A stretch of DNA of 64,000 nt from Variovorax saccharolyticus (lineage in GTDB: Bacteria; Pseudomonadota; Gammaproteobacteria; Burkholderiales; Burkholderiaceae_C): the NCBI RefSeq assembly GCF_030316765.1, contig NZ_JASZYT010000007.1, positions 186,001-250,000 of the forward strand, read 5' to 3'. This document shows positions 2,109-38,950 of the stretch, piece by piece. The notes beneath the pieces are model-generated. The model saw nothing but the letters and a program-made list of their open reading frames with translations, had not been told where the DNA came from and made no database searches. The position numbers were made by a program, and so were the translations under genes. Each line of letters opens with the position of its first letter. Within the stretch, counting starts at the first letter, position 1.

Positions 2109-2447
2109 ATGAGCAAATCCGCTGCCGCGCTGCTGGGCCTCGCCCTCTGCTGCGCCCCCGCCTTCGCCGAGTCTCCCAAGCTGCCGCTGAAGAGCGACGA
2201 CGGCGGGACGGTCTACGTCAATCCGAACCTGTCCCCGACCGAGAAGTCGATGGACTCGAATGGCGCCACGGTCGGCGTGGAACGCCCGGACGGCAGCAGC
2301 AAATACATGGGCGTCGAGACCACCGGACCGCGCCCGACCTACTCGCTGGGCGGCAGCACCGCCGGCGACCTCTCCTACTCGGCTGGCGTCTTCTCGGACG
2401 GCAAGGAAAAGAAGGGCGTGAAGGCCGGCGTGACGATCAAGTACTGA
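2109..2447 (+). CDS. small secreted hypothetical protein
   Basis: A 112-residue protein beginning MSKSAAALLGLALCCAPAFAE, a clear signal peptide with an AFA-type cleavage site. The mature part is Gly/Ser/Thr-rich with alternating hydrophilic residues (VYVNPNLSPTEKSMDSNG, then YSLGGSTAGDLSYSAG) and ends GVKAGVTIKY, which looks like short beta-strands. No family is recognised. The gene sits after the nuclease terminator, so it probably has its own promoter, although none is obvious. Its stop codon TGA is the first triplet of the dispersed hairpin repeat that follows. Confidence 0.7.
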   Translation: MSKSAAALLGLALCCAPAFAESPKLPLKSDDGGTVYVNPNLSPTEKSMDSNGATVGVERPDGSSKYMGVETTGPRPTYSLGGSTAGDLSYSAGVFSDGKEKKGVKAGVTIKY

Positions 2448-2571
2448 GACCTTGCGGGACAGACCAAGAAACTGCTCAGCAGTTTTTGCTCTGTCCTCAA
2501 CTGATCAGACTTGCGGGACAGACCAAGAAACTGCGCAGCAGTTTGTGCTCTTTGCTCAACTGACTGAGACC
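2446..2571. repeat. two tandem copies of a dispersed hairpin repeat (family A)
   Basis: Two 54-bp units (2451-2504 and 2510-2563) begin CTTGCGGGACAGACCAAGAA and end CTCAACTGA, with a 59-bp period. Each has an inner stem AAACTGC/GCAGTTT. The first also has an outer stem GGACAGA/TCTGTCC, which has decayed in the second. A third copy lies at 31461-31514. The first copy begins at the stop codon of the upstream gene and the pair lies between convergent genes, so a bidirectional terminator role is likely. Confidence 0.85.
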
Positions 2572-2581
2572 ACGCCCCGAC

Positions 2582-4744
2582 TCAGCCTTCGGCCACCTGC
2601 GCCAGCGCGGCGTCGACGCGCGCCACCTCGCGCGCCAGCAGGTCGGCGGCAACCTGCACCGTCTCCCAGTCGCCACCCTCGCGCCAGGCGCTCTCGAGCT
2701 TCTTGGCCAGCTGCGCCGCCGGCTGGGCGCAAATGCTGGCCAGCGCGCCCTTCAGCGCGTGGACTTGTTCCTTGCCGGCTGAGGCATCGCGCTCGGCCAG
2801 CGCCTTCTCGATCGCCAGGCGGCGCACTTCCATGTCGCTGCGCATGGCGACGGCAATCTCGCGCACCATCTCCAGGTCGCCGCCCAGGGTCCGCACCAGT
2901 TGCCGCATGTCGACCGGCGTCGACTCCATCACGGCCCCGAACAGGTCGTCCACATCGTCCGGCCCGGCGGGCTCCCAGCCGCTGTCCGGCGCCCGGCGCG
3001 CGGCCCGCGCCTCCTGGATCGCCTGCGCCAGCAGCGCCGGCGACACCGGCTTGGACACGTAGGAGTCCATGCCGGCCGCTAGGCAGCGCTCGCGATCGCC
3101 GGCCATCGCGTGGGCGGTCAGCGCCACCACCGGCGTATGGCCGCGGCCCGGCTCCGCCGCCTCGAGCGCGCGCATCCGCGCCACCGCATCGAGACCGCTC
3201 AGCACCGGCATCTGCACGTCCATCAGCACCAGATCGAAGCGCTCGCCGGTCCAGCAGCGCAGCGCCTCTTCGCCGTTGCGCGCCACATGGAAGGTGCAGC
3301 CCATCTGGGTCAGCAGCTTGCGCATCAGCAGTTCGTTGACCGCGTGGTCCTCGGCCACCAGCACGTGCAGGCCCTGCAGCGTCACGGCTTCGAGCGGGGC
3401 CGGTTCGGTCAGCACGCTCATCTCGTCGGCGGCCTGCTCGAACACCGCGGTGAAGCGGAAGGTGCTGCCCTCGCCCGGCCGGCTCAGCAGGTGCAGCGCG
3501 CCGCCCATCATCGACACCAGCCGCGCGCAGATGGCCAGGCCCAGGCCGGTGCCGCCATAGCGCCGCGTGATCGATGCATCGGCCTGGGTGAAGGCCTCGA
3601 AGATGTGGGCCTGCTTGTCCTCCGGGACGCCGATGCCGGTGTCGCGCACCGTGAACAGCAGGCGCAACTGGTCCCGCCGCAGTTCGCTCTGGTTCGGGGC
3701 CATGCGCGCGGTCACCGAGATGCGGCCGAAGTCGGTGAACTTCACGGCGTTGGAGACCAGGTTGGAGATCACCTGGCGCAGCCGCCCCGGGTCTCCGGCC
3801 ACCTTCCAGGGCACGCCGTCGGCGATCTCGACCTCGACCTTCAGGCCCTTCTTCGCCGCCGCCGGCCGATGCAGCGCCACGGCCTCGCGGACCCAGCGGC
3901 CGACATCGAAGCGGACCTGCTCGAACACCAGCTTGCCGGCCTCGATCTTGGACAGGTCGAGCACGTCGTTGAGCAGGGCCAACAGCGAGGTGGCGGCGGT
4001 GTCGATCAGCTCCAGGTGCTGGCGCTGCTCCTCGTTGAGCGGCGACTGGTGCAGCAGCCTCGTCAGGCCCATCACGGCATTGAGCGGCGTGCGGACCTCG
4101 TGGCTCATGTTGGCGAGGAATTCGCTCTTGGCGCGGTTGCTGGCCTCGGCCTGCGCACGCGCCTGCTCGATCTCCGCATGCATGGTGCGCCGGGCCGTGA
4201 CGTCGGAATTGAAGCCCGTGAGCCGCAGCGGCTTGCCCTCGGCATCGCGCTCGGTGACCATGCCGATGCTCTCGATCCAGATCCAGCCGTGGGCGGTCGA
4301 GACGCGGTGCTCGGCGATGTAGCGGTCGGACTTGCCGCTGAGCGCGTCCTTCAGGGCCTGCCGCACCGTCGGCAGATCATCGGGATGCACCCGCGCTTCC
4401 AGGGCGCCCAGCTCCCAGCGGCGGTCCTCGACCACCTCGCCGATCATCTGGTCCCAGCGACGGCCCAGCAGCACCTTGCCGCCCGTCATGTCCCATTCCC
4501 ATTGCGCCACCCGGGCGGCCTCGGACACCATCAAGTGGCGCTTGGCAGCCACCAGGACCTTGTGCGAAGCGCCGAGTTCTTCATCCTGCTGGCGCACGCG
4601 GGCAGCCAGCTTGTCGCGCTCGGCGGTGAGCGCGACCACCCGGCGAACCAGTTCGAGCTGGCGCTGGCTCGAGGCCTCGAGGCGCGACAGCGCGTCCTGC
4701 AGGTCGGCATCGGGTGCCGGGTGTGTCATTTCATCTGCTGCCAT
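2582..4744 (-). CDS. hybrid sensor histidine kinase (PAS-HisKA-HATPase-REC-HPt)
   Basis: A cytoplasmic hybrid kinase of about 720 residues with no membrane segment. In order: a coiled coil (roughly 10-60), a PAS_3-type domain (about 75-165), HisKA with SHEVRTPLNAVMG (His near 214), HATPase with GTGLGLAIC, a receiver with LVLMDVQMP (Asp near 507), and a C-terminal HPt with HALKGALAS (His near 661). This gives a complete internal His-Asp-His relay that can pass phosphate to a separate receiver. It is divergently placed from the REC-GGDEF gene at 4902, the likely recipient. Start choice is uncertain: ATG at 4744 or 4729 fits better than the far upstream ATG at 4849. Confidence 0.9.
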   Translation of the reverse strand: MAADEMTHPAPDADLQDALSRLEASSQRQLELVRRVVALTAERDKLAARVRQQDEELGASHKVLVAAKRHLMVSEAARVAQWEWDMTGGKVLLGRRWDQMIGEVVEDRRWELGALEARVHPDDLPTVRQALKDALSGKSDRYIAEHRVSTAHGWIWIESIGMVTERDAEGKPLRLTGFNSDVTARRTMHAEIEQARAQAEASNRAKSEFLANMSHEVRTPLNAVMGLTRLLHQSPLNEEQRQHLELIDTAATSLLALLNDVLDLSKIEAGKLVFEQVRFDVGRWVREAVALHRPAAAKKGLKVEVEIADGVPWKVAGDPGRLRQVISNLVSNAVKFTDFGRISVTARMAPNQSELRRDQLRLLFTVRDTGIGVPEDKQAHIFEAFTQADASITRRYGGTGLGLAICARLVSMMGGALHLLSRPGEGSTFRFTAVFEQAADEMSVLTEPAPLEAVTLQGLHVLVAEDHAVNELLMRKLLTQMGCTFHVARNGEEALRCWTGERFDLVLMDVQMPVLSGLDAVARMRALEAAEPGRGHTPVVALTAHAMAGDRERCLAAGMDSYVSKPVSPALLAQAIQEARAARRAPDSGWEPAGPDDVDDLFGAVMESTPVDMRQLVRTLGGDLEMVREIAVAMRSDMEVRRLAIEKALAERDASAGKEQVHALKGALASICAQPAAQLAKKLESAWREGGDWETVQVAADLLAREVARVDAALAQVAEG

Positions 4745-4901
4745 CCGGGGCGCCTTCGTCGGGACATCGTGGCGAGCCCTGATAATGACGCCGATCGCCA
4801 TCCGGGCGACCGAGCGTCTTGCTGCAATTGTTCCAGGCCTCCATGGCACTTCCGCTGATCACCGCCAAGCCCACCTGCACCTCCATGGCGTTCGTCGTCC
4901 G

Positions 4902-30612: not shown

Positions 30613-30642
30613 AATGGCGACCGGTCTCCCACCGCGTTGCAC

Positions 30643-31437
30643 ATGAGAAAACCACAATCAGACGTTCCCGCCACTCCCGTCATCCAGGTGATCGAGCGGA
30701 TGTTTTCGCTCATCGACGTGCTGGCGTCCCGTGAAGAAGCGATTTCCCTCAAGGAGATCAGCGAAAAGACGGGCCTGCATCCGTCCACCACGCACCGGAT
30801 CCTCAACGACCTGGCGGTAGGCCGCTTCGTCGACCGCCCCGAGGCCGGCAGCTACCGGCTCGGCATGCGCCTGCTGGAGCTCGGCAACCTGGTCAAGGGA
30901 CGGCTCAACGTGCGCGACGCAGCCCTGACCCCGATGCGGGAGCTGCACAAGCTGACCCAGCAGCCGGTCAACCTCAGCATGCGTCAGGGCGACGAGATCG
31001 TCTACATCGAGCGCGCCTACAGCGAGCGCTCGGGCATGCAGGTGGTGCGGGCCATCGGCGGCCGCGCCCCGCTGCACCTGACCTCCACCGGAAAGCTCTT
31101 CCTCGCGGTGGACGAGCCGCAGCGCATCCGCAGCTACGCCACGCGGACCGGACTGGCCGGCCACACGCGCAACAGCATCACGCAATTGCCGGCACTGGAG
31201 CGGGAACTGTCCAAGGCCCGCCAGTACGGCATCGCACGCGACAACGAAGAGCTCGAACTCGGCGTGCGCTGCATGGCCGCCGGCATCTACGACGACCAGG
31301 GCAAGCTGGTTGCGGGACTGTCGATCTCGGCGCCGGCCGATCGGCTCGACGAGGGCTGGCTGCCGAAGCTGCAGGCCACCGCCAACGAGATTTCAGGCGC
31401 GCTGGGCTACAAGGCCGACCAGGCGGGGACGTCGTGA
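30643..31437 (+). CDS. IclR-family transcriptional regulator
   Basis: A 264-residue protein with an N-terminal winged helix (VIERMFSLIDVLASREEAIS, LKEISEKTGLHPSTTHRIL) and the IclR effector domain (LHLTSTGKLFLA, then GVRCMAAGIYDDQGKLVAGL). The target is unknown: neighbours are bpt upstream and a convergent endopeptidase gene. ATG at 30643 is used; a TTG two codons earlier is possible. The TGA stop is the first triplet of a family A repeat. Confidence 0.88.
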   Translation: MRKPQSDVPATPVIQVIERMFSLIDVLASREEAISLKEISEKTGLHPSTTHRILNDLAVGRFVDRPEAGSYRLGMRLLELGNLVKGRLNVRDAALTPMRELHKLTQQPVNLSMRQGDEIVYIERAYSERSGMQVVRAIGGRAPLHLTSTGKLFLAVDEPQRIRSYATRTGLAGHTRNSITQLPALERELSKARQYGIARDNEELELGVRCMAAGIYDDQGKLVAGLSISAPADRLDEGWLPKLQATANEISGALGYKADQAGTS

Positions 31438-31514
31438 GACCTTGCGGGACCTCTTGAGACCTTGCGGGACAGACCAAGAAACCGCGCAGCGGTTTTTGCT
31501 CTGTCCTCAACTGA
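31436..31514. repeat. dispersed hairpin repeat (family A), third copy
   Basis: A partial unit (31436-31450) is followed by a full 54-bp unit (31461-31514) nearly identical to those at 2451-2563. The inner stem here is AAACCGC/GCGGTTT instead of AAACTGC/GCAGTTT, a compensatory change, and the outer stem GGACAGA/TCTGTCC is intact. It lies between convergent genes. Confidence 0.85.
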
Positions 31515-31530
31515 CTAGAACCCCCCGCCC

Positions 31531-32697
31531 TCAACTGGCAGCATGCACAAACGCCTGCTGCAGATTCTGATTGGGCCTGGCCATGTGGGTTGCCTCGACC
31601 CAGCGGCGCACGCGCTCGGCGTCGCCGATGCGGCTGAACTTGCCGGCGGAATCCAGGAACACCATGATCAGCTTGCGGCCGGCGATCTTCGCCTGCATCA
31701 CGAGGCATTGGCCGGCTTCCGAGATGTAGCCGGTCTTCTGCAGGCCGATGTCCCAATCCGGGCTCTTGACCAGCCGGTTGGTGGTGTTGAACTGCAGCGT
31801 CCGGTTGCCGACCTCCACCTGGTACTCGGGCGAAGTCGACAGCTGGCGCACCGTGGCGTCGGCATAGGCGGCGTTCACGAGCAGGGCCAGGTCCTGGGCG
31901 CTCGACTGGTTGCGGCTCGACAGGCCGGTCGGCTCGACGTAGCGCGTGTCCTTCATGCCGAGCATCTTGGCCTTGGCGTTCATCACGCTCACGAAGGTCG
32001 ACAGCCCGCCGGGATAGGTACGGCCCAGGGCGTGGGCGGCCCGGTTCTCGCTCGACATCAGCGCCAGGTGCAGCAGTTCGCCGCGCGGCAGGGTCGCCCC
32101 GACCATCAGGCGCGAGCGGCTGAATTTCTCGGTGTCGACATCGTCCTGCGTGATGGTGATCAGTTCATCGGAGGGCAGCTTGGCCTCGCTGATCAGCAGG
32201 CCGGTCATGAGTTTGGTCAGCGAGGCGATCGGCAGCACGGCGTGGTCGTTCTTGCTGAACAGCACTTCCTGGGTGTCCTGGTCGATCACCAGGGCGACGC
32301 TGGACTTCAGGTCGAGCGCGTCCTCGGTTCCGTGCAGGCCGGCCATCTGGCCGAAGGATTGACGCGCAGGTGCGGATTCCGTCACACGCACGACCGAGCG
32401 GCGTTGCACTGCCACCACGGTCTTGCCATTCTTTTGCCGGATCGAAGCCACGACATTGCGGCCACCGCTCACGGTCTTGTCGGCTTTGTCAACCTTTGCG
32501 ACCGGCTTGGCAGCTTGGCGCTTGGTGGCGCTGGCCTTGCTTGCAGCGGGCTTCGGGGTCGCGGCGGCCTTCTTGGAGGCCGTCGCGGCATTCGCGGCGG
32601 GCAACAAAAACGCCGTGGCGCAGAGCGCGACGGCGACCAGGCGAAGGGCGGGAAGGAACCGCTGGCTTGAAACTCGGTAGGAACGGGCTTCGGGCAT
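31531..32697 (-). CDS. pbpG: D-alanyl-D-alanine endopeptidase (PBP7/PbpG-type, peptidase S11)
   Basis: A 388-residue periplasmic penicillin-binding protein. After a signal segment (LVAVALCATAFLLPAANAA) comes a Lys/Ala-rich linker (about 40-80), then the S11 catalytic domain with SLTK (near 158), SEN (near 214) and KTG (near 320). It cleaves peptide cross-links in peptidoglycan. The ATG at 32697 has GGAGAG upstream; a candidate promoter lies at 32733-32761. Confidence 0.92.
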   Translation of the reverse strand: MPEARSYRVSSQRFLPALRLVAVALCATAFLLPAANAATASKKAAATPKPAASKASATKRQAAKPVAKVDKADKTVSGGRNVVASIRQKNGKTVVAVQRRSVVRVTESAPARQSFGQMAGLHGTEDALDLKSSVALVIDQDTQEVLFSKNDHAVLPIASLTKLMTGLLISEAKLPSDELITITQDDVDTEKFSRSRLMVGATLPRGELLHLALMSSENRAAHALGRTYPGGLSTFVSVMNAKAKMLGMKDTRYVEPTGLSSRNQSSAQDLALLVNAAYADATVRQLSTSPEYQVEVGNRTLQFNTTNRLVKSPDWDIGLQKTGYISEAGQCLVMQAKIAGRKLIMVFLDSAGKFSRIGDAERVRRWVEATHMARPNQNLQQAFVHAAS

Positions 32698-32732
32698 TGA
32701 AAAACTCTCCAGCGGCGAAAAAGGTGTCCGCA

Positions 32733-32761
32733 GTGTAAACGAAATCAAAAAAGACACGCAA
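32733..32761 (-). promoter_or_regulatory. predicted sigma-70 promoter of pbpG
   Basis: On the minus strand TTGCGT (-35) and TTACAC (-10) are separated by a T-rich 17-bp spacer, about 36 bp upstream of the pbpG ATG. The sequence is markedly AT-rich for this genome. Confidence 0.55.
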
Positions 32762-38814: not shown

Positions 38815-38950
38815 GTCAGCAGGACTCCTCTTTTCGCCGCCCTCCCCCGTGCACGGTAATGCGCGGGCTCGGCGGACAATAGATTCGTCAATTAAGAGTT
38901 GAAACCCGGTCCTTCGGACACGGGGACTTGTGGCTTCGCTTTAGCTCGCG

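Follow-up and report, generated by a model that had tools for sequence, protein, structure and literature searches.

A hairpin repeat seated on stop codons in Variovorax, best described as a REP-like element of putative mobility

The window, a 64,000-nt stretch of the genome of a Variovorax species (labelled G000 in all counts), carries a short repeat in two of its gaps between genes (Table 1). The unit is about 63 nt long, reads TGAGACC-TTGCGGGACAGACC-variable stem-TTGCTCTGTCC-TCAACTGAYYAGA, and forms one long hairpin, in which an outer stem GGACAGA/TCTGTCC is followed by a C-C mismatch, the pairing CAA/TTG, a bulge, an inner stem AAACTGC/GCAGTTT and a three-base loop. The unit at 31455 has a predicted folding energy of -24.2 kcal/mol (z -3.9). 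The exact 16-mer TGAGACCTTGCGGGAC was found at 2445, 31435 and 31455 in the window search. With up to three mismatches allowed, 3 matches were found where 0.83 were expected, a number reached in 2 of 100 shuffles; chance is unable to account for three exact 16-mers, though the count at ≤3 mismatches is weak when taken alone. The original prediction had placed the repeat at 2445 and 31435, with its TGA as the stop codon of the upstream gene and with convergent genes around both loci, and exact matches and gene calls bear out each of these points. The inner stems that it listed, AAACTGC/GCAGTTT in two units and AAACCGC/GCGGTTT in one, were also recovered. The number and extent of the copies were revised: two full units lie in tandem from 2445, and the stop seat at 31435 stands, but this stop codon lies in a partial copy of 16 nt, the full unit starting at 31455. 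No Rfam family scored above its gathering threshold at the repeat loci in the window scan, and positions 2400-2620 gave weak matches only, mostly to miRNA families and far below the cut-off.

Table 1. Repeat units, surrounding genes and an RNA feature in the window (window coordinates).
Feature	Position	Strand	Details
Host gene	2109-2447	+	112 aa; without Pfam match; signal-peptide-like start (by eye)
Full unit 1	2445-2507	+	91.4 bits; begins with the stop codon of gene 2109-2447
Unit 1 stems	outer 2457-2463/2490-2496; inner 2469-2475/2479-2485	+	
Full unit 2	2505-2566 (start approximate)	+	70.5 bits; tandem to unit 1; degenerate 3' outer arm TCTTTGC
Convergent neighbor	2582-4849	-	Hybrid histidine kinase: HATPase_c, Response_reg, HisKA, PAS_3, Hpt
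Host gene	30637-31437 (start possibly 30688)	+	IclR-family regulator
Partial 5' copy, 16 nt (TGAGACCTTGCGGGAC)	31435-31450	+	Its TGA (31435-31437) is the stop of the IclR-type gene
Full unit 3	31455-31517	+	95.2 bits; begins 20 nt after 31435
Unit 3 stems	outer 31467-31473/31500-31506; inner 31479-31485/31489-31495	+	
Convergent neighbor	31531-32757	-	D-alanyl-D-alanine carboxypeptidase (Peptidase_S11)
ilvH RNA (RF02993)	38822-38889	-	Known cis-regulatory leader; 88.5 bits

A covariance model built from 15 units was searched through the window's genome and returned at least 57 units in G000 (E 3e-21 to 5e-9; 150 of 3,194 first-look candidates scored). The 66 matches listed comprise these 57 units and nine reverse-strand shadows at the same places. 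The units group into at least 51 sites, and across the genome the family is far beyond chance. Genes around all 51 sites were called with a codon-score script of our own trained on the window, rather than with an established gene finder. On these calls, the repeat lay on the strand of the gene upstream at 49 of the 51 sites, and the stop codon overlapped or abutted its 5' end at 40; at 8 further sites the stop lay 1-25 nt before the repeat, five of them with a 15-16-nt partial TGAGACC... copy in front. The gene after the repeat was co-directional at 32 sites and convergent at 17, and the remaining two sites were divergent and behind a minus-strand gene, respectively. Relatives gave the same picture, with same-strand and stop-seated sites numbering 46 and 39 of 48 in G016, 13 and 12 of 14 in G011, 6 and 5 of 6 in G021, and 83 and 60 of 89 on non-Variovorax contigs of Rhodoferax/Polaromonas type. 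Pooled over the five sets, in which related sites are not independent, 197 of 208 sites were same-strand and 156 stop-seated; 15 contig-edge sites (14 non-Variovorax, 1 G016) and 8 duplicates were omitted from these counts. The window holds 121 non-coding TGA against 43 TGA stops, so that random seating on non-coding TGA predicts about a quarter of the copies at stops. The covariance-model search and the table of stop distances and orientations, both suggested with the original prediction, show that the location of the copies is non-random: they lie at the ends of genes, in most cases on the stop codon.

No function common to the host genes was found: the 49 host proteins matched 86 Pfam families, each present in at most two of them, and a regulon reading was rejected because the 49 host genes have no common family. 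A selenocysteine or other readthrough element was likewise rejected, the next in-frame stop following after 19 codons at 31 of 46 sites and at other lengths at 15. At L258 and elsewhere in Variovorax, full units are preceded by runs made up of the 5' part alone (TGAGACCTTGCGGGAC followed by 4-6 nt, repeating about every 20 nt), as if copying had stalled at the foot of the hairpin.

In a first small alignment drawn from the window's own genome, two-sided change was limited to one stem pair, in two sequences, and 12 of the 17 pairs were invariant, so the support for covariation from this genome alone is thin. The wider alignment contained 128 non-Variovorax units (125 distinct; 91 of 92 loci searched, L204 omitted). 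Here, 98.8% of cells were paired, and both sides had changed in 9 of the 17 pairs (184 cells). The covariation value was 0.229, compared to at most 0.057 for slid versions; the alignment was fitted to the model, and so is biased towards structure, and related sequences count repeatedly. The outer stem also varies, with A-U swapped to U-A in 10 units. The compensatory stem changes first noticed in the window are matched by wide covariation outside the genus.

The original prediction took the repeat for a mobile or gene-converted bidirectional terminator that inserts at gene ends, with both window loci between convergent genes. Several observations agree with this. A T-run of 5 or 6 occurs in 49 of the 57 G000 units, the unit at 31455 satisfies a simple test for terminators, and the gap at the 31435 site contains another terminator-like hairpin in 20 of 28 relatives that do not have the element. 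There is a mild excess of convergent gaps among the sites (17 of 49, compared to 32 of 189 gene ends; p 0.009), compatible with terminator use at some of them. Of the three window units, the one at 31455 alone passed this test, and both of those at 2445 failed it; a laxer scan listed two terminator-like sites, overlapping each other, in unit 2 and none in unit 1. The convergent setting, however, is not general, since co-directional sites are nearly twice as numerous in G000; at 27 of the 32, the next start codon follows within 40 nt (median 14 nt), which leaves little room for a promoter. Moreover, the T-run sits inside the hairpin, and runs of at least 5 were found in just 6 of 141 non-Variovorax units. 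A bidirectional terminator is thus not a general description of the family, and we consider it unlikely as the explanation of the repeat, with a terminator role at the 31435 site being plausible.

Within the genus, the repeat was matched in at least 31 of 101 genomes, with no match in the other 70; the highest counts among those listed were 65 in G016, 15 in G011 and 8 in G021 (E ≤1e-5), all of them close relatives. With 13 candidates scored per genome, at least 97 of 399 genomes and at least 45 of 141 genera had a match in the family sample, and at least 6 of 399 genomes in the order sample, of which five belong to the same family, including the window's own genome, and one lies outside. A pattern scan of named genomes gave at least 105 stretches in Rhodoferax, Polaromonas, Ramlibacter, Variovorax, Comamonadaceae, Burkholderiales and unclassified betaproteobacterial bins, and in one bin labelled Gammaproteobacteria. 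There were zero exact pattern matches in viral contigs and zero blastn matches in plasmids and phages, and carriage as phage or plasmid cargo was rejected on these grounds. A sister repeat, whose outer stem GGGTCAGACC...CTCTGACCC has a swapped base pair, was observed at L126, L137, L188, L207 and L213 on Rhodoferax-type and Burkholderiales contigs, frequently in tandem.

G016 shares 23 of the 51 G000 sites on both flanks. For unshared sites, the matching gene ends in relatives were compared, and ends without a reciprocal partner were dropped. This presence/absence turnover between close relatives, seen in genome comparison, is what would be expected for a mobile or copied element, and to that extent speaks for the mobility or gene conversion originally proposed. 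Tail lengths were equal in 91 of 107 filled-empty comparisons and in 660 of 820 repeat-free gene pairs (each pair in both directions), indicating that an ortholog without the repeat usually ends at the same codon. Among the 94 stop-seated Variovorax hosts, which represent 70 orthologous groups, 90 end in TGA, compared to 399 of 556 other genes (Fisher 2.5e-8); the four others (one in G000, one in G016, two in G011) keep TAG, which is evidence against an obligatory conversion of the stop. Among non-Variovorax hosts, TAG was found at none of 65 seated genes vs 55 of 484 elsewhere (p 0.0014), and TAA was not depleted (15 of 65 seated vs 124 of 484 elsewhere).

The stop codon of empty relatives was compared with one count per orthologous group and with out-of-register pairs dropped; after removal of 27 groups without a usable relative and of 4 with a TAG host, 39 sites remained. 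The nearest in-register relative had TAG or TAA at 12 of these 39 TGA sites vs 9 of 77 control genes (Fisher p 0.02, without scar filter), and with stop-neutral scar filters at 12 of 32 vs 9 of 76 (p 0.003) or 12 of 35 vs 9 of 77 (p 0.008). Comparable relatives have TAG or TAA at L047, L049, L062 (three relatives) and L270. The excess over the controls is a hint that the repeat rebuilds the stop as TGA, and together with the TGA bias of the hosts it lends moderate support to the earlier claim that the repeat supplies the stop. At 27 of the 39 independent sites, however, the relative already has TGA, so that most sites also fit a plain insertion behind TGA. A C before the stop is more frequent at seated genes, both in Variovorax (67 of 94 vs 302 of 556, p 0.002) and outside it (34 of 65 vs 152 of 484, p 0.001). 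At filled sites, the last codons ahead of the stop are more divergent (codon -2, 0.66 vs 0.80; codon -1, 0.76 vs 0.87), which would not follow from a simple join behind the T. Junctions vary by a few bases (TGAGACC, TGAATACC, TGATGACC, TGACTTTG), and on the 3' side part of the empty-site sequence is frequently missing, so that these data do not show a clean join.

Scars such as TGAGACCTTGCTCTGTCC mark several gene ends without the repeat in G011 and G021, and eroded copies occur in relatives. At L300 and L414, both in G011, this scar reflects the precise deletion of the 5' arm and loop from between TTGC direct repeats, likely through slippage; at L097, the ortholog of the 31435 site, just TGAGACCTT and GTCCTCAAC are left. 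Such scars would be expected if the present copies were old and mostly being lost, with an ancestral TGA motif relaxing to TAG or TAA after each loss. This reading is set against the 70 genus genomes without a match, and at L062, where three relatives all have TAG without any trace of the repeat, it needs several losses. We regard it as very unlikely.

The same data bear on a selected cis-acting mRNA element (for stability, processing or the end of translation), in which the motif is UGA-spacer-hairpin and patchiness reflects functional gain and loss. Conserved bases flank the stem on both sides, the spacing from stop to stem is near-constant, and the wide covariation and the prevalence of TGA in Variovorax hosts fit such a function. 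The lack of a common function among the host genes, the many genus genomes without a match, the tandem and partial copies and the eroded copies in relatives do not, and we judge this explanation fairly unlikely.

The repeat has a fixed orientation, a seat at the stop codon, a kept gene-end register and a covarying hairpin, it occurs in tandem and partial copies, and it turns over between species and leaves scars. The description that fits it best is a new sort of REP-like hairpin whose mobility is putative. In the explanation that we prefer, a hairpin family of about 60 nt multiplies like a REP/MITE-type passenger in Comamonadaceae, and the chances that this is right as a whole are roughly even. 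A new copy would join immediately after the T of a stop, often with C in front of it, and the stop would be rebuilt from the first bases of the element itself (GA of GAGACC, in some cases AA), keeping the protein length; TAG and TAA hosts would become TGA where the element begins with GA. In the mRNA, the hairpin would form a stem-loop in the 3'-UTR or between cistrons, about 9 nt after the stop; it would be mostly tolerated, would perhaps protect or trim the upstream message, as is thought for REPs, and may have been recruited as a terminator in some of the convergent gaps.

A more specific version, a miniature element whose insertion is aimed at stops, joining behind the T of TGA, TAG or TAA in sense orientation and restoring the stop with its own bases, is tentative and, in our view, somewhat doubtful. 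If it were true, new copies would be invisible to the host protein, and a machine that senses gene ends would be needed, via coupling to translation termination or via mRNA; alternatively, cleavage between CT and RR would be followed by purifying selection that leaves copies only at stops. Short palindromes are common in bacteria. A family that is locked in orientation and seated on stops makes it possible to study how non-autonomous repeats locate the ends of genes, and there is some evidence that its arrival rewrites TAG or TAA to TGA without a change in protein length. The dozens of natural pairs with and without the repeat in close species could be used to measure the effect of a post-stop hairpin on an operon.

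Compared to known repeats, the family resembles the GTAG/CGTC REPs, as described in passages of PMC3733652, in being short, palindromic, high-copy and intergenic and in lying near 3' ends, mostly between unidirectional or convergent ORFs. The passages describe those REPs as tagged, 20-40 bp long and in many families paired in opposite orientation, and state that GTAG REPs "often provide" a TAG stop codon (PMC3733652). Unlike them as so described, the repeat here is about 63 nt long, forms head-to-tail tandems, has one orientation to the gene and has mostly TGA as its stop. With at least 57 hairpin units at G000 gene ends, it is high-copy, intergenic and palindromic as REPs are, whereas the GTAG/CGTC tag is absent from the 15-unit consensus and from the flank profiles (119 5' sites, 118 3' sites), and the single PF01797 gene of the genome has no unit within 1.5 kb. 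As these tag and RAYT features are missing, the repeat is not filed as a REP, despite working like one.

That gene (L009, G000:C12:840122-840445, upstream of an apparent gltB judged by eye) encodes a Y1, RAYT-like transposase, and the repeat could be a true REP that this single transposase moves in trans. According to passages of PMC6006769, the hairpins on which such proteins act have a guide sequence located 5' of their foot, and the genome does hold one such gene; the repeat also resembles the hairpin ends of IS200/IS605 and RAYT systems in its imperfect hairpin and conserved single-stranded flanks, as far as these are described in PMC6006769 and PMC2817692. In contrast to the RAYT genes of those accounts, which are flanked by REPs, the sole gene of this kind here has no unit near it, and the unit has no tag. 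The gene was matched in 97 of the 101 genus genomes, in single copy in all but three of these, and looks like a domesticated gene that is kept vertically; as it is present in 97 genomes and the repeat in at least 31, co-occurrence is uninformative either way. Neither the neighborhood (1.5 kb) nor co-occurrence (101 genus genomes) supports a RAYT-driven REP, which we hold to be quite unlikely. As to MITE features, the unit ends are not inverted repeats; the 3' end reads ACTGA, so that CTGA is present at both ends, and no clean target-site duplication was seen. The Variovorax units share a stem-loop and T-run with intrinsic terminators and differ from them in that the T-run lies within a longer stem and is mostly lost in other genera.

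The repeat family was not found described in the openly licensed papers searched (CC0, CC BY or CC BY-SA); the Rhodoferax ferrireducens genome paper deals with CRISPRs in its passages on repeats (PMC2755013). The nearest named repeat found for this bacterial group, compared here in length and GC, is BRE, the Beta-proteobacterial repeat element, whose description in passages of PMC3110155 includes Polaromonas and Rhodoferax among the hosts, tandem arrays and suspected mobility. The Bordetella contexts listed in those passages are all unidirectional or convergent, without mention of a link to stop codons, and some copies lie within coding sequences (PMC3110155). The two repeats are alike in betaproteobacterial hosts, tandem arrays and gene contexts. 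They differ in length and GC, BRE being described with 75-91 bp at full length and a GC content of 63.7-78.9% in Bordetella (PMC3110155), compared to 63 nt and a GC fraction of 0.37-0.60 (128 units) for the repeat here. The family is a real, non-random variant of short palindromic repeats with a stop-codon habit.
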